Assembly: GCA_009869945.1 (NCBI GenBank)
Contig: WIXG01000026.1
Location: 310,001 to 374,000 of the forward strand
DNA length: 64,000 nucleotides
DNA from: Mesaphorura yosii
Taxonomy: Eukaryota; Arthropoda; Collembola; Poduromorpha; Tullbergiidae
Reading direction: 5' to 3'
Position 1 is the stretch's first letter, and each line of letters starts with the position of its first letter. Position numbers and translations under genes: made by a program. Shown piece after piece: positions 999 through 38,363 of this stretch. The notes under the pieces were generated by a model, which ran no database searches, had not been told where the DNA came from, and saw only the letters and a program-made list of their open reading frames with translations.

Positions 999-3900
999 AT
1001 GGTTAACATCCAAATCCTGGTAAGTCCTGTTACTATTTCAGTCCATACTTTCGTTCGATTTTGTATTGCTCCGTTTCTCATTCTCACGTCATCAACTTAC
1101 GATTAAAGTGGCCTGTGATAGATTCACCATATGTTCACATCTGCGGGCATATTATCACGCAATCAATTTGGGGACACGTCAATCATAATTAGAAATATAA
1201 AGTTTGCTGAAAATTGAAGCCTAATTGTGTTCTGAACTCTCCTTTGGCATACAAGCGAAGGTCATAAATTAAGGCGTTGATCAAATATTTACTCTTAATT
1301 TTATGGATCAAAGTTTATCGCACAAATGAGAAACTCGGCTTACACGCGAGGAAAAAGGTGAACTGATGGCAGAAATACTAGTAGACTGAAAGTTTATCGC
1401 GCGCGAGGACGATCATAATATGGACATTAACTTAGTTGGCATGATTTGTGTGTATTTTACGCTTAATTTGTGTAAACAAATTTGGTTCCAAGAATTAGGA
1501 AATTCTGTTGCGCGGATGGGTAAAGTTGGCATTTCCTACGGATTGTCTCTATTTGCCTCAATTAATCCTTCTGAAAGCTAAACCACTACGTTACCCGATT
1601 ACTCAATAGTTTATACCCACGTCAGAATTTGAAATGGAGTCACTATGTTCCCTGGCATAGTAAAAGCTTAGTTCTGGTTCCATAAAATTAATATTTACCA
1701 GTTGCGTCAATTATTAATGAACTGTTATGATAGAAATAATGCAATTTCACTATATTGTGGGTTTGGGTTTAGCCTGGCTATAAAATAACATTTGGCGTGT
1801 TATTTGGGCCGGAAACACTCCAAAGTGCTGCGCGTCTGTCAATGCTCGCAAGAGAAATGCGATGAAAGTCGACTTCACTTGAATTTCTGTTCGGCGTGTC
1901 AATTCATGTATGCATGTGCACTCGCACAAAGGAAACGAATATTGAGTGAATGAGAATGATCACAAAACCTGTCACCTTCGTTTTATTTCCAATCAAACGA
2001 CTCTCGTCCCACGAATTTATCAAGAATGTTTTTCCAAGTATCTTAATGCAACAGAGAATGACGCGTGTTCATGTTATAGAGTATACATTATTAAACTAGA
2101 CACACATGCGTAAGAAAAGGCGATCAGACCTCTTGAGACAATTTTTCTTTGCACGCGAGTATGAGCCGAGAGTAAAAGGCGCATGCTGAATCTAAAACTC
2201 TGCTTTCTAAAGAGAAGTATTTCATAATGCCGCAATTGCACAGCTACTTCCCTTGCAAATTACGTTCATTCAGAATTAAAATTCGGGACACCATTCCAAT
2301 TAATTCCGTGTCGGATTATGCTTCTGCTCTTTTTTGTACTGTGGGTCACAATTATTGTATTGATGGCAGACAAGCGATGGCTTCATTATTTTCGTTGTAC
2401 CTGTTGCACTTAAGAAACGCTTTTTACATTTGGTAGGGAATTTCAATTTAATACAGTGTAGCAATTATATGAATTGACAGTGTTAAGCAGATGTACATTT
2501 TTGGAAATTCAATTTGTCAAGCGATTCATTCGTTCCGGGTAATTTGCTTCTGTGTTTATTTTGCACCTGTACTCGAATAAGCGGCTTTTAGTCTGATGAA
2601 GCAATAAAAGTAAGAGTGTTCAAGTGGGCGAACCGATTCGGTCTTTTCTCCCATTTAGTCCGTATTTGAAATTTTCATTTTCAAGTGAGTCGATCTCCAA
2701 ATTGAAGCGAATTGGTAGAACGAGACGGAGAAGCTATTCAAAATTCATGAATGAATTCAGAACTCAGACAGCTATGTGAATAGAATGAAGTTTGTGAGAT
2801 GCTCAACCGAAAAGATTATCTTCGACTGAGAGAAAGAGAATGCAAAAATTCAGCCACTGACGACTGATCAATTCAGCGGGAATTAAACCGACCGTGGGTA
2901 TTCTAGTTCGCGAAGGGTGAATTCGTGCTACTTTTAGAGTCTTTTATATCATACAAGGAAAAATTTGCTGTGACAAATTTGAACTTAACCGACGAACCGC
3001 CCAGATCACGTAAATAGAAGGCGAAGGACGGACGTCATCGTCAGATTATCATGTCAGTCATGAACTCCATAACCACTGCCTCGTGTCGACTGAACTACTT
3101 AGAAATTCTGGCTTTTATGGAATGAAAACTTTTGCACATTTAAATAACTAACACTGTAATATGAAGCAGAGTGGAGTCGGAAAGAATTGCTTTCGCAGAA
3201 TTGTGCCCGGAATAAAACACGGGTATCTTGAAAATGAAAACACGCTGATGAAAAACGGCCATATGCGCTGCATGGTAAGTTGAATTGCTGTTGCGGTTTA
3301 TAATGTCGGACGAACAATGCTAAAATTGGCATTTATCCAATTATTGGCAATGTGAAAGAAATGTGAAATTGAAAATGGTACATGCTGTTTTTAAGTTCGA
3401 TTACAATAAAACGTTGTGACATGCATGATTTAATAAAGGGCGACACTTTAATAATTTTTATTGAATAACTAAACTAGACACTATTGTCGGAAGCTAAGGA
3501 CATACGAAAATGCAGGCTTATTGCGAATTTTGACAAGGGATTAGTAGTGCGCCCTCTTATGACCTTGCCGAAGTGCGAAAATTGCCGACACATGTGGATG
3601 AAATGCGGATAGAAGAGGCAGAAATATAGTTTCACATTGCCCCAGATATCTAAAGTAACGTGTAAGCGTAGCGGGGTATCATGTCACAAAGCTAACTCCA
3701 ATTTGAAAGCCGACAATACAATGAAGACTCTGCTAGAGCTGAAGTTGCACACGGTAACTTCTTCCTGCAGGAGTGTGTACGCGTGACATAGGAAATTTGC
3801 AACGAAGTTTGCGTGAACTCATATCGAATATTTGACGAAAACAACTATACAAATAGTCAAGGTTTAAATAATGAAACAGTAAATTGCGACTTTATATAAT

Positions 3901-31600: not shown

Positions 31601-34600
31601 TAAAATTGTCGCTTTGCCTTAGAAGAGTGGGTAATTAAGCCATTTTCCTGGTTGAAGTCATTGAAGCGAAGTCAGTCGAAGGATTGACGTTAATCGAGCA
31701 TGTTAATTTCACAGAGCTTGAGTGACCAGAATTCGATGCATTGTATGAATTTATCGGCCTTTGAAAATTTACACTGCTTGATTACTACAGTGCTGGTAAC
31801 TGAAATAGCCGGACTAAACAAGCAACGATTTCTCACAGTACTTTAGCTTTATAGAACTGGGCTACTAGCAATAATACCTGCACGAGGCACAGGCGAAATA
31901 ATGTAGACAATTCCGTGAAGTAGTATCAAATGTTCTGAGATTTATTGAAGAAAAACGCAAAAATGCGGTAATTTACACTAGTAATTGAAATAGCTGGTTT
32001 CTCAATTTTTGAAAAAATCTCAAGATTTTGATTACATGAAATGCTGATTACTACGTTAATAGTTAATAGACCCTCCTTTGTGCACTAGAACGTCAGCTTC
32101 ACGGCTTTTCATACTTGTAATAAATGCCAGCAAATCTTTAGTGAGCTTTAGTCTTCAATTGCTGTGGTAACCGCACGGATGGAGTCGAATTGTCTTTCGT
32201 TTGCGTAGACACGTCTGGACAGGAATCCCCACACATTCTCGATCGGATTGAAGTCTGGTGAATATGGTTGCCAATCCACCACGTTGATTTCCAGGGCTTG
32301 CAGCCAAGCTTGGAAAGACTTCGCGCGATATATCGGCGCATTGTCTTGCATGAAAATCGCATTTTGGAGAGAGTAAAGGGGCAATTCTTCCAGGAATGGC
32401 AGCAAGTGATCCTCCAAAATTGTTTGATAGCCGCGGGCGTTCAATCTCGTGGAGACAATGCGAAGTGTGGCCTTGCCATAAAAGGAGAACGCCGCCCAAA
32501 TCATGACGGAGCCTCCGCCGGTGTGCCGCTTCGAAAAAATCTGCTCATCCTTCCGAAATTGTCCCAATAATTCGCGAAACTATCTAAATTAATCTTCTTT
32601 TCATCGCTGAAAATGACGTCCTTCCACTTTTCGTTCCAGCCGAGTTTATCATGAGCCCAAGCCAGTCTTTTCTGCTTGCTAGCTGCATTTAATGGAGGCT
32701 TCTTTTTCTTTTCCTTGTACTTTAGGTTTTTGTTCTTGTTCAGTGTGTTGTACACGGTTTTCACCGAAACATTTAGCTTGAGGTTGTCCTTCAACTTAAC
32801 GCAGGAGATAGTTTTGTTGCTCGCTTGGTTCAACAGTCTGCGCTTCGTTCGATGATCCAGCTTACCCTTCGATCCAGGGTGGTTTTGGCCGTAATTTTGT
32901 CGGAGTCTGAAGTAATTTGCACATTTCATCTCCGATCTGTTCAGCAATCTTGCCTTTTTTGCCGGCTGCCTTCAAAATTTCAAGTTGAGAAATTTGAATT
33001 ACACAGTGCACATTTTCTGCATTTCTAATTTTAGCTTCTTTATCATGTAAGCATAAGAGTCATGTGTTGCTTTTATAAACAGTGAACATGTCCAGTTACA
33101 ACGCCCTACCATTGTCACCCCATGTTCTGAACGCACAGCCGAGTTATTCGAATATTTTACGTCCGGCTATTTCAATTACCAGCACTGTATAAAGCGCTAG
33201 GTGTTCGGGGGAAAGTGAGACATGAGACTCGAGGACATTGTTATGGACGATCCTATATTGTTGCATTTAATTTGGATTTTACTATGTGTAGTTGAATTAA
33301 TGTGATTATTTTACAGTTCTTATCCATCAAGAAAATGATACGATTCGAATGTTCGATGCGGCAAAGGAATTCGTTGAGAGAAACCCGAGCTTGGGTGTCA
33401 AAGTGGGTACCGTTCATCGTTTCTTCGCCAATGGAACCGAGCCCTTGAAACTGACAAAAACATGTAAGTGATCGGAGTCATTATTAATCCATTATAATCT
33501 TGTTGAATTTAAGTTTTGAACAAATGACAGTTTGCGAGTATATGGATCAAATCATGAGTGGGGACGACAGACCGGACATCGCGATTGACTTCACAAGAAT
33601 TGGCATTCCTTCGGAATCGGTAAAAGTCGTTCTGAGAACGATGCAAATGCCCACTATCGCTGCTACCTTCGGACAAGAGGGCGACGTCAGGTATCAATTT
33701 CGGACGAATTCGTCGAATTGTAGCATTTAATACATGTGTGGGTGATCTACTCAGGGAGTGGCGCGAGATGAGCGATAACCAGCAAAAATATCTGATCCAG
33801 ATCTCTCCACCGGCAGATATTTTGGTACAGTCAGTTCGATCTATCGTTGACAAGCAGAACATGACGAGCGCAGTGGTTTTGTTCGATGAGCAATACGGTA
33901 ATAACGTCGATTTGGTCATCTTGACACTGCCGTTGTACAAACGACAAATTGTGCGTGATTCACAGAAATGTATCACAAGTATAAGTCTCTGCTGCAAAAT
34001 CTGCCGACTCGACATCTTCTGACCCGAGTTGAGAAGTCAGCAAGTCTCCACGCTCAAATCGACAAGCTTGTGCACGTGGACATCGTCAACTTCTTCATTG
34101 CTGCAACACCAGCACAAATCTCAGAAGTTCTGGTCAAAGCCTCCGACCCGAAAGCAAAAGATGGACCATGGTTTAGTGATGAGTACGCCTGGTACTCCAT
34201 GTCGTTGGTAATGCCTTCTGTTAATAAGCTACTAGTGGCCAGTGTCACCGAACACTCGGTGACGTAAAATCTAAAAATGAACAGCCGTTCACAACACTAC
34301 TCACTATTCTGCGACCAGCTAACCGGCTCCCCACTTAGTTCACTGTCCGACCAAATTGCCTACAAACCCGCTCACTTCACCATACCACTGCACACTCGAC
34401 ACGGCCAAACTCATCCCAAACTACTATCCTCCTTCAGTCATCTCCTCCATCGTCATACACTGCCAGCCCGACCCCGCCAACCGCCTCCCAACTTGCTATA
34501 CTCTACCCACCCGACTCAGCATTCCTTCTCACCACCAACTTGCTCACCTGGACCCTAGAACAAGCCTACTTGCTCTACACCTCCCGCCCGATCCCGTCTT

Positions 34601-37600
34601 CCCTGTACCCATAAACATTGCCTCCGTCCTCGTGGACCTCGTCAGCCGTCTCTCCACACGCTTTAAAATGCGCGTCTGATTTCACCACTGACTCTCCCCC
34701 AATAAAACATGTGCATACAAACCGTGCAACCGCTTCCTCTTCTAACTCAATCTTCTGCTCGTTCCATCCTTTGCACCCACTAATCCCCCGTCAATGCGAC
34801 CCCTGAAACTACCTCCTCTCTCATCATTCCGTTGTTTAGCCGGCCCATTCAATCGAATTTTCCTATCTACCAGACCCCACCAAACCGCCTTCCCTCCCAG
34901 TATTCTCCCCCCAAACATGGACCTTAGCCAAAATGGCAAAAATCTTGAATTTCTTAAATTTGGAAAATTTCCTGGAAAGTTTCCAGAGATTTTGGAAACG
35001 ACTTTTTGGTCATTGGCCCAGTCGATTATTGGGGCAAAAATATAAGTTTCCAAAATTTTTATTGAAAAAAGTCTGCCCAAGAGTGTCCCAAAAAGAATAT
35101 GAATTTGTTTTGGGGTATCTGTCACCGTTTTTGAGGCTATAGAGCACAAACATCCATCCCACGATAAAGAAGTAGATTTTAGCCACGGGAAACAAGTGAA
35201 TGTGTTGTTTCAGGGAGAAGGAACACCCAGTTGTGCTCATTGCGATATGCCTGTGTCGCTGGTGCATTTGACTCCGGAAATTCCAAAGGCTGGAGAAATG
35301 AAGAGGAACTTTTTGACTGGACAATTGAGCACAACATCCGCCACACTCACGGAAATGTTCTACTTTGACATTACGTTGGACGCAATATTGGCCGTTGGGT
35401 AGATGCAGGATTTCAGTTGATTTGTTATGCAGCTAGTTGTAGGAATGTAACGTTCTGACTTGATTAATTAGGGACATGAAGAGTAAGCAGAAATGGACTC
35501 ATGATATTTCCAACAACACCTGCGTAAACTATAAGAGTGATAAGACATACCCGGAACTCGATTTGGACCTGATAAACTTCTTTGAGACCGCCTCAATGGA
35601 GAACGCACTGGGCGACAAATTCGTCATGGGTGGGAATGGAAAGAATTATCCACAATTTGAAATGAAAATTCGGTATTTAAAGTTCGAGAAAAACGAAGCG
35701 GTCCCAAATTTTGATGATCTGATCGGTAAGTGGAAGTCTGGATACGGAGACGCATCGCAACTCCAGTATCAGGAAAATAAAAACTTGACAAATCACATGG
35801 CTCAGATTGTGTTCAGAGTCGTTACGGTCGTGGTAAGTGTCTTGAATTTTTTGACGCGATTCGCAAAATGTCGGCATTGAATATTGTTAATCTCTATTCA
35901 GCAACCGCCATTCGTATACAAAACGACCGAGTGCGAGAATCCTGGATCAAAATACGAGAATTGTTTCAAAGGCTATTGCATTGACCTGCTGAAGAAAATC
36001 CAGGAAGAGTTGCAGTTCAAGTTCATCATAAAAAATGTCAGCGGGTACGGATACATGGCGGAAGAATCACCACATGAGTGGGATGGAATGGTCAAAGAAT
36101 TAAAGGACAGGGTAATTCGCATGTTGAGTTCGCTTGACGGGACATGTGTGATTTCACTCAATTTCTCATGTCTTTGCAGCAAGCCGATATAGCCCTGGGA
36201 GCGATGTCGGTCATGGCAGAACGTGAAAGTGTGGTTGACTTCACGGTCCCATATTATGACTTGGTTGGAATCTCGATTCTCATGAAGAAGCCAAAGGCCA
36301 CGACCTCCCTCTTCAAATTCTTGACCGTGCTGGAGAACGACGTGTGGATGTGCATTCTGGGAGCTTACTTCTTTACGAGTTTCCTGATGTGGATCTTTGA
36401 TCGCTGGAGCCCGTACAGCTACCAAAACAATCGAGAGAAATATGAAGAAGATGAGGAAAAGCGAGAATTCAATCTGAAGGAATGTTTATGGTTCTGCATG
36501 ACTTCACTGACTCCTCAGGTATTTCTTCGACTTTCAACACCGAATAAACTCGGGCTCCAGAGTTTCACGTTTATCTGTCCAGGGTGGTGGTGAGGCGCCA
36601 AAGAATTTGTCAGGACGGCTGGTTGCTGCAACATGGTGGCTGTTTGGATTCATCATCATCGCGTCGTACACCGCGAATTTGGCTGCTTTCTTGACGGTGT
36701 CTCGATTGGATGCTCCGATTGAATCGTTGGATGATTTGAGCAAGCAATACAAGGTCCAATATGCTCCTCTAAAGAACAGCTCGGCTTGGGTTTACTTCGA
36801 TCGAATGGCACACATTGAACACCGATTTTATGAGTAATTTGACAAAATTAGAAGCGTGGGGTAGACAGTGAGAATGCAGGAATGGTTTGGTTTTAGAATA
36901 TGGAAGGATATGAGTCTGAATGACAGTATGTCCGACTACGAGAGATCACAGCTGGCCGTGTGGGACTACCCCGTTAGTGACAAATTTACAAAAATGTGGC
37001 AGGCCATGCTCGAGAACACTCCACCAGAAACTTTCGAGGAAGCTGTTGAACGAGTTCGGGGAAAGATTGAGGCCAATGGCAAAGAAGCGGATGGATTCGC
37101 GTTTCTCGGTACTTTTCTCAATTTAAGCATTCAAACCAAATGGTTTCGGTTACATATTAATCATATGATATGATGCAATGCTAACACAAAATATGGAATC
37201 TTAAATCACATGAACTCTGAACTCAAGACGAGGCAACCAATATAAAGTATCAAACAACGATTAGCTGTGACTTTGACATGAAGGGCGAGGAATTCTCACG
37301 TAAACCATATGCGATCGCTGTTCAGAAAGGGTCTCCACTCAAAGAGTCGTTCTCTCACATGTAAGGCATGGGGTCATCGATTTTCGTTACGGTCGTTTCG
37401 GTCTTTGAAAGTCGTTGCAAGACAAAAGGCTGCATACCATTGTTCAGATTCCAGCAATGGTTTATCTAAAACATTTCAATTCGTCGCACATTCTTTCTTA
37501 ATCACAGTCTACAAATGCTAATCGCTCCAAACTCGCAACTTGAGACAGTTGTAAGTTTAAATTGAGTGAACTCTTGCTTCAATGCACATGCCATTCAAGT

Positions 37601-38363
37601 ACGCGTACTTTACTTGGAAAATGTCCAGTCAAGTTTCATGTCTGCTCTGTGTTTTGAACGTTTGGCGTTTCTGTATTCTCTGCACTGTTCCTTCAGGAGA
37701 CGCAACCGACATTCGCTACCAGGTGATAACCAACTGTGACCTGCAAATGGTCGGCGAAGAGTTTTCTCGTAAGCCGTACGCTTTAGCAGTGCAGCAAGGC
37801 TCGCCGCTCAAAGATCAATTGAACGATGCGTAAGCGTGGCTCCTAAAAACCTAACCACTGACAGCTTAGGCATATTTATTCTGCACTCTTAACTTATACA
37901 CTGCCTTTAGAGTAGTTAATCACGGGGCCTTCTCACGTAATCTTAGAAAGACTGCATTAGATTAAATAATCTCCAGGATTCTGAAGCTGCTAAATCAGCG
38001 ATTCTTGGAGCAACTGAAGGAAAAATGGTGGAACGATAATCCAGACGCGAAGAAGTGCCCGAGAGAAGATAACCAGTCAGACGGAATCAGCATCCATAAC
38101 ATTGGTGCGTAGTTTGAGATAGGAAACATGGACTGAATCCTTACCATTGTGCTAATTTGATTCCAATTTCCCCAGGCGGTGTATTCATTGTCATCTTCGT
38201 GGGGATCATCATGGCTTGCTTCACTCTCATATTTGAGTACTGGTGGTACCGCAAACGCAACGTGGCCGAAGAATTGGCTGAAATGGCTCTGCCACCTCCG
38301 AAAGAATTTGCACCTTCTTATAACAACGAGAAGACAAATTTCAACACACAATACAACAAGTAA
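28602..38363 (+). CDS. Ir25a: IR25a, ionotropic receptor co-receptor (iGluR family)
   Basis: Exons 28602-28725, 33317-33463, 33531-33690, 33755-33897, 33966-34207, 35214-35398, 35472-35832, 35902-36111, 36180-36518, 36583-36833, 36897-37108, then either 37228-37360 or 37697-37829, then 37977-38104 and 38176-38363. With either alternative exon the protein is 940 aa. A signal peptide (hydrophobic [10 protein letters not shown]) is followed by the amino-terminal domain retained only in IR25a/IR8a-type IRs. Next come ligand-binding half S1 (about 450-575), TM1 (about 579-598, [18 protein letters not shown]), the pore loop [18 protein letters not shown]3 with [12 protein letters not shown]2, and TM4 (about 880-902, [20 protein letters not shown]). 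[10 protein letters not shown] and [19 protein letters not shown] are hallmark IR25a sequences. IR25a is a membrane co-receptor that partners tuning IRs in olfactory, taste, hygro- and thermosensory neurons. The ATG at 28602 is preferred because the frame upstream has none. A possible AATAAA signal lies at 38960. Confidence 0.97.
28726..31787 (+). other. IR25a first intron, 5' part
   Basis: The first intron runs from 28726 to 33316 (4.6 kb). This 3 kb part, up to the inserted transposon, is AT-rich. I see no gene, and small open frames around 29455-29800 and 30600-31430 have no support. Confidence 0.5.
31788..33187 (-). mobile_element. Tc1/mariner-family transposon, decayed, in IR25a intron 1
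   Basis: The element is 1400 bp with terminal inverted repeats of 27 bp, beginning CAGTGCTGGTAACTGAAATA on the left; the right copy differs at one base. It is flanked by TA (31786-31787 and 33188-33189), the target duplication of this superfamily. A partial internal copy of the TIR sequence (GTAATTGAAATAGCTGG) lies near 31981. It carries one minus-strand transposase gene with frameshifts. The near-identical TIRs suggest modest age. Confidence 0.92.
32148..33000 (-). pseudogene. Tc1-like transposase, frameshifted
   Basis: Reading on the minus strand, an N-terminal helix-turn-helix remnant ([10 protein letters not shown]) is followed by a second HTH region ([10 protein letters not shown]). The catalytic part then has [15 protein letters not shown] and FNPIENVW. 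There are 34 residues between the second Asp and the Glu, the DD34E pattern of Tc1. At least two frame changes break it, one near 32900 between the HTH1 remnant and the following frame, and one near 32550 just before [11 protein letters not shown]. No full-length protein is possible, so the copy is not autonomous. Confidence 0.9.
34208..35213 (+). other. IR25a intron 5 with a C-rich, G-poor island
   Basis: A 1 kb intron in a gene where most introns are 60-120 bp. From about 34285 to 34920 the plus strand is strikingly C-rich and G-poor, unlike everything around it. A more ordinary AT-rich part with repeated TTTCC/GGAAA strings follows at 34930-35060. No coding frame spans the island; three frames are partly open but each stops. 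It may be an unidentified element inserted in the intron. Confidence 0.6.
37228..37360 (+). CDS. Ir25a: IR25a alternative exon 12a (tandem duplicate)
   Basis: A 133-bp open exon between exon 11 and the canonical exon 12. It enters in phase 1 (codon G+AC gives Asp) and leaves in phase 2 (AT+G gives Met), exactly as the canonical exon does. The encoded 45 residues include [27 protein letters not shown] and [12 protein letters not shown]. About 26 of 45 residues equal those of the downstream copy. Many codons for identical residues differ at the third base, which is what purifying selection on protein leaves. The donor (CAT/GTAAGG) is good; the acceptor (GAACTCAAG) has a weak pyrimidine tract. 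It is either a regulated mutually exclusive exon or one that is decaying. Confidence 0.82.
37697..37829 (+). CDS. Ir25a: IR25a canonical exon 12b
   Basis: A 133-bp exon encoding [20 protein letters not shown], then [20 protein letters not shown] and QLNDA. It is closer than exon 12a to the sequence known from insect IR25a (GDATDIRY...TNCDLQ...). The acceptor is strong (CTGTTCCTTCAG) and the donor is GC/GTAAGC. It encodes the part of S2 that carries the acidic agonist-contact position and the hinge strand. Confidence 0.95.

Follow-up and report, generated by a model that had tools for sequence, protein, structure and literature searches.

IR25a Gene Model

The window, that is, the whole stretch of 64,000 nucleotides considered in the present work (contig WIXG01000026.1 of the collembolan Mesaphorura yosii, positions 310,001 to 374,000 of the forward strand), harbors on its plus strand a gene of the iGluR family. 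Its nine modelled exons extend from 35214 to 38363, if the two tandem exons described below, 12a and 12b, are counted as one. The exons outside the tandem pair are the following:

33317..34206, plus strand: four exons of the amino-terminal region (boundaries approximate, junctions provisional)
35214..35398, plus strand: exon of the amino-terminal region (gene model)
35472..35832, plus strand: exon encoding the end of the amino-terminal region and the start of S1 (gene model)
35902..36111, plus strand: exon encoding S1 (gene model)
36180..36518, plus strand: exon encoding the end of S1, M1, and the start of the pore (gene model)
36583..36833, plus strand: exon encoding the pore, M3, and the start of S2 (gene model)
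36897..37108, plus strand: exon upstream of the pair, with an NDS sequon and most of an S2 insertion that corresponds to the extra loop of the co-receptors
37977..38104, plus strand: exon downstream of the pair, encoding the end of S2 up to M4 (gene model)
38176..38363, plus strand: last coding exon as modelled, with M4, the C-terminus, and the stop (gene model)

Besides the four amino-terminal exons (about 33317-34206), the first exon of the gene was not found, and an alternative last intron (38358/38431) was dropped since it gave stops. Just upstream of the first modelled exon lies a transposon-like stretch (window:31786-33189), in which 29-nt inverted repeats, 97% complementary, flank open frames on the minus strand; these presumably resemble a Tc1-like transposase.

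The encoded protein matches the ligand-gated channel profile PF00060 and the S1 ligand-binding profile PF10613 above their cut-offs (148.6 and 109.4 bits, respectively), and its best PDB matches are kainate receptors. The S2 insertion places 58 residues between two aligned parts, versus 20 in the GluK1 chain 7lvt_A. Moreover, the same genome harbors, at a distinct locus (L014), a separate gene that we take to be IR8a-like. The assignment of the gene to IR25a was thus based on the S2 insertion with its NDS sequon, on the separate gene at L014, and on a close resemblance to insect IR25a, which we assume. According to PMC6472016, IR8a and IR25a have an extra loop of about 30-35 residues, typical of the co-receptors and located near the start of S2, with an N-glycosylation sequon. 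A hand-joined stretch used as the query for the amino-terminal domain (PF01094) reached 13.6 bits (E 0.034; cut-off 25.4); according to PMC2924276, this domain can be made out in IR8a and IR25a, although it is more divergent there.

Structure and Reading Frame of the Exon Pair

The region between the upstream and downstream exons is organized as follows:

37109..37227, plus strand: intron before 12a, 119 bp, with a branch-point-like motif (TGCTAAC, 37179-37185) 44 nt from the exon
37228..37360, plus strand: exon 12a, 133 nt, putatively the faster-changing copy, whose acidic residue at the iGluR ligand-contact position is Glu
37361..37696, plus strand: intron between 12a and 12b, 336 bp, whose pairings with the neighboring introns are no stronger than those of shuffles
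37697..37829, plus strand: exon 12b, 133 nt, putatively the conservative copy, with Asp at the same position

A first-pass annotation had placed here, in the part of IR25a encoding the S2 lobe, two tandem duplicated exons of 133 bp, both open, entered in phase 1 and left in phase 2, with a 336-bp intron between them. Coordinates and frames are exactly as it described, the intron length follows from the coordinates, and a tandem duplication in the S2 lobe fits the sequence evidence. Both exons possess GT donors and AG acceptors; both start from a common upstream exon end, which provides one codon base, and leave two codon bases to the next exon. They are identical at 79 of 133 nucleotides, and 26 of the 44 codons lying wholly within the exon encode the same residue; the final codon, which the next exon completes, encodes M in 12a and A in 12b, so that 26 of 45 residues are identical, in agreement with the approximate count previously given. 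The many third-base differences reported for the pair are likewise found, with 12, 10, and 32 differences at codon positions 1, 2, and 3, respectively.

The likeness of the two open frames is far above chance (blastp E 8.8e-18). Probing the 93-Mb assembly with the DNA of positions 37100-38100 retrieved a single match, the query region itself, and in a protein search with 12b all the matches with E <= 1.3e-24, among the best candidates that were scored, fell at the IR25a locus. No Rfam match was obtained over the whole window at gathering thresholds, and pattern scans for relatives returned two stretches in viral_contigs and one in genome_contigs, none of which was confirmed. The assembly also gave no match to the COX1 family, which was detected in 8 of 14 control genomes, and none to the insect odorant-receptor family, for which the controls were equally negative. 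In the IR8a-like gene (L014:3836-4126), the matching part of S2 lies in a single uninterrupted open frame, unlike in IR25a; hence, the boundaries of the duplicated exons are not common to the two genes.

Transcripts with either 12a or 12b translate cleanly to one common stop. The joint inclusion of the two exons leads to a stop 13 codons past the 12a/12b junction codon, and the skipping of both to an immediate stop; the frame is kept only with exactly one of the two exons in the transcript, as had been claimed.

Splicing Signals

The donors of both exons start with GTAAG. The pyrimidine fraction of the acceptor is 0.50 for 12a and 0.81 for 12b, in a range of 0.44-0.81 among the ten modelled acceptors; two of these ten are below 12a (0.44) and one equals it (0.50). 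The weakness of the 12a acceptor rests, therefore, on the A at position -3 (AAG). Furthermore, the nearest AG lies 100 nt upstream of the 12a acceptor AG, a gap reached by 9 of the 3870 AG gaps of the window (itself included); the corresponding gap of 12b is 63 nt, which is reached by 109 of 3870. Some regulated exons are preceded by extended AG-free zones and remote branch points, and the 100-nt gap hints at a distant branch point for 12a.

The introns flanking and within the pair are 119, 336, and 147 nt long, and according to the model coordinates the six other IR25a introns between 35398 and 38176 measure 63-73 nt, far less than the 336-bp gap. The docking sequences that the annotation suggested searching for in this gap did not emerge: for the six pairings among the three introns around the pair, 45-98% of 60 shuffles were as low, and none of the intron folds stood out (best z -1.5). 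Overall, the tests on intron pairing, intron folding, and splice signals revealed no feature preventing double inclusion. The description of the exons as "obligately mutually exclusive" thus holds for the reading frame, whereas exclusion by the splicing machinery finds no support in the 336-bp gap or in the six intron pairings.

Coding Constraint on the Two Exons

The pairwise comparison of 12a and 12b by Nei-Gojobori (NG86) counting gave a pS of 0.848 (25.2 of 29.7 sites), which is saturated and beyond correction, and a pN of 0.274 (28.8 of 105.3 sites). A neutrally changing 12a beside a 12b changing only synonymously was then simulated in 21 settings (20-80 neutral changes, 0-40 synonymous changes) of 1500 runs each, the target state being an open frame with at least 54 differences and at least 26 identical residues. 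Two of the settings each reached this state once in 1500 runs; the other 19 never reached it in theirs. Since the simulation did not include insertions or deletions, real neutral survival should be rarer still. As pS and pN are pairwise values, we infer the constraint on 12a alone from the simulation. The saturated pS, the pN of 0.27, and a state that neutral decay almost never reproduces would make 12a an old coding exon maintained by selection.

In the PDB search the best chain was GluK5 for both forms, with 72.0 bits for the 12a form and 77.4 bits for the 12b form. In the comparison with the genome's IR8a-like gene, 12b alone agrees at eight positions and 12a alone at two; for GluK1 the corresponding values are four and two, and the same counts were obtained with GluK5. 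These numbers, although small, favor 12b as the conservative copy and 12a as the faster-changing one.

Position in the Ligand-Binding Domain

The block encoded by 12a or 12b starts at the iGluR ligand-contact acidic residue, which is Asp in 12b and Glu in 12a, and which we take to contact the ligand in GluA2 and GluK2. At this position, aligned with the Glu of kainate receptors, 12a has Glu, while 12b, the IR8a-like gene, and GluD1 have Asp. Moreover, 12a retains the S2 coding signature, including a whole stretch of ten residues and the Cys.

The exchange of one block for the other would preserve the fold of the ligand-binding domain and its cysteine; it would replace Asp with Glu at the ligand-contact position and alter the final residues of the block, which would adjoin the region swapped as flip/flop in vertebrate AMPA receptors. 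A preserved fold, the Asp/Glu change, and the changes at the end of the block together point to a possible tuning of the co-receptor in its gating, its export, the closure of its cleft, or the packing of its subunits. Isoform choice might thus serve different tuning partners, rather than a new odor specificity. PMC6472016 states that IR8a and IR25a keep most of the glutamate-contacting residues and that several of these are dispensable for IR8a function. On that basis the Asp/Glu change probably matters less, and its effect may be on conformation and not on ligand choice.

Comparison with Known Systems

In the vertebrate AMPA receptors GluA1-4, flip and flop are mutually exclusive exons of 115 nt. 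Like these, the IR25a pair consists of two tandem exons of the same length, one of which is predicted to be used at a time, in the part of an iGluR-family gene encoding the S2 lobe just before M4. Unlike flip/flop, the pair belongs to another gene and lineage (IR25a is not an AMPA subunit), its exons are 133 nt long and not 115, and its block includes the acidic residue of the ligand contact, a residue that lies outside flip/flop. According to the alignments and to GluA2 numbering, the block sits directly on the N-terminal side of flip/flop, with an overlap confined to the first flip/flop residues. The IR25a pair would work like flip/flop, yet it is not flip/flop.

Exon 3 of the insect glutamate-gated chloride channel is an example of mutually exclusive exons. 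As in such pairs generally, 12a and 12b are tandem homologues in matching phases, and a single one is predicted to be used; unlike some of them, they show no sign of an intron that is too short or of pairing between docking and selector sequences. Docking/selector RNA pairing is one known mechanism enforcing exclusion and is not required.

With the IR25a genes of other animals, the gene shares the iGluR-like domain layout and the co-receptor extra loop with its sequon, as these are given in the main texts of PMC2924276 and PMC6472016. In the first of these texts, introns are described as varying extremely in position from one IR25a orthologue to another. The terms "splice variant" and "duplicated exon" are absent from the main text of PMC2924276, and "splic" and "isoform" from that of PMC6472016; this holds for those two texts alone.

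Interpretation and Alternative Explanations

The exon pair is real and probably functional. The reading that we prefer, to which we assign a probability of roughly 0.8 on the sequence evidence, is that a single IR25a gene has 12a and 12b as alternative coding exons, derived from an old tandem duplication and used one per transcript, so as to give two co-receptor isoforms differing in a 45-residue block of S2. The form with 12b, given its pyrimidine-rich acceptor and conservative sequence, would be the default one; that with 12a, having an AAG acceptor, a long AG-free zone, and possibly a distant branch point, would be the regulated one. Transcripts with both exons or with neither would be eliminated chiefly on account of their broken frame.

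It might be argued that 12a is a decaying or dead pseudo-exon and that 12b alone is used, since 12a changes faster and its acceptor is less typical. After synonymous saturation, however, 12a still has an open frame of exact length and its splice sites, and it agrees with 12b at 26 of 45 residues; the neutral simulation attained this in no more than one run out of 1500 per setting; this explanation, which we consider improbable, was rejected on pS/pN and on the simulation. If anything slightly less probable is a regulatory role, in which 12a would mainly act through double inclusion, truncating the protein before M4 and leading to decay, so that the IR25a dose would be lowered instead of a second receptor being produced. 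The early stop after double inclusion and the failure to find any feature blocking such inclusion are in line with this possibility; a poison exon, on the other hand, needs no amino-acid conservation, yet the S2 coding signature is kept in 12a. Finally, two IR25a alleles or paralogues might have been stitched together in the assembly, which comprises 1127 contigs. The nucleotide identity of the copies (79/133) is too low for alleles and no second IR25a locus was found in the 93 Mb, which makes such an artefact very unlikely indeed.

IR25a is treated as one invariant subunit common to many receptor complexes. If there are two coded forms, as in the preferred reading of alternative coding exons, the co-receptor itself could tune the complexes that serve smell, taste, or the sensing of temperature or humidity. 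In that case, the functions assigned to "IR25a" in such species would need to be split by isoform. The Asp/Glu swap would represent a natural test of what the ligand-binding domain of the co-receptor does. In turn, an exon switch would have arisen here independently, adjoining the very portion of the domain in which vertebrates use flip/flop.

Duplicated Exons in Other Glutamate-Receptor Genes

A preceding comparison had covered ten loci and IR25a. In the survey, open frames were compared within 56 loci, many of them overlapping and all deriving from receptor searches, and same-strand repeats 60-3000 bases apart were considered; of the 64 listed PF00060 matches, 30 were covered by such loci. 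Sense-strand exon pairs were found in three of the surveyed genes, namely, IR25a and those at L018 and L019, the further matches being the same pairs on the other strand. The blocks of the last two genes are:

L019:2192-2508 and 2643-3068 (G000:C341:52191-53067): tandem pore-exon blocks of an AMPA-like gene, with one downstream exon in common
L018:921-1052 and 1451-1665 (G000:C69:206920-207664): tandem pore-exon blocks of a kainate-like gene, the second copy split by a small intron

The splice boundaries of both genes are predicted and were set by eye. In the AMPA-like gene, a 317-nt exon is the counterpart of an exon pair of 85 and 262 nt; both blocks are entered in phase 0 and left in phase 2 into the common exon, and using both together destroys the frame. 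One block has Arg and the other Gln at the residue that aligns with the GluA2 Q/R site. In the kainate-like gene, a 132-nt exon corresponds to a pair of 119 and 19 nt, with Gly versus Gln at the Q/R-site position; both or neither of the blocks can be included in frame, and the second copy can be spliced only with a GC donor. The pS and pN values of the pore blocks are 0.74 and 0.42 for the AMPA-like gene and 0.67 and 0.40 for the kainate-like gene.

These data tentatively suggest, at somewhat less than even odds, an arthropod lineage with splicing switches in several genes of the glutamate-receptor family, i.e., IR25a (Asp/Glu), the AMPA-like gene (Arg/Gln), and the kainate-like gene (Gly/Gln), which would fill the roles that flip/flop splicing and RNA editing at the Q/R site have in vertebrates.

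Many of the 64 listed PF00060 matches lie in open frames some 500-800 codons long, which is expected of intron-poor divergent IRs.
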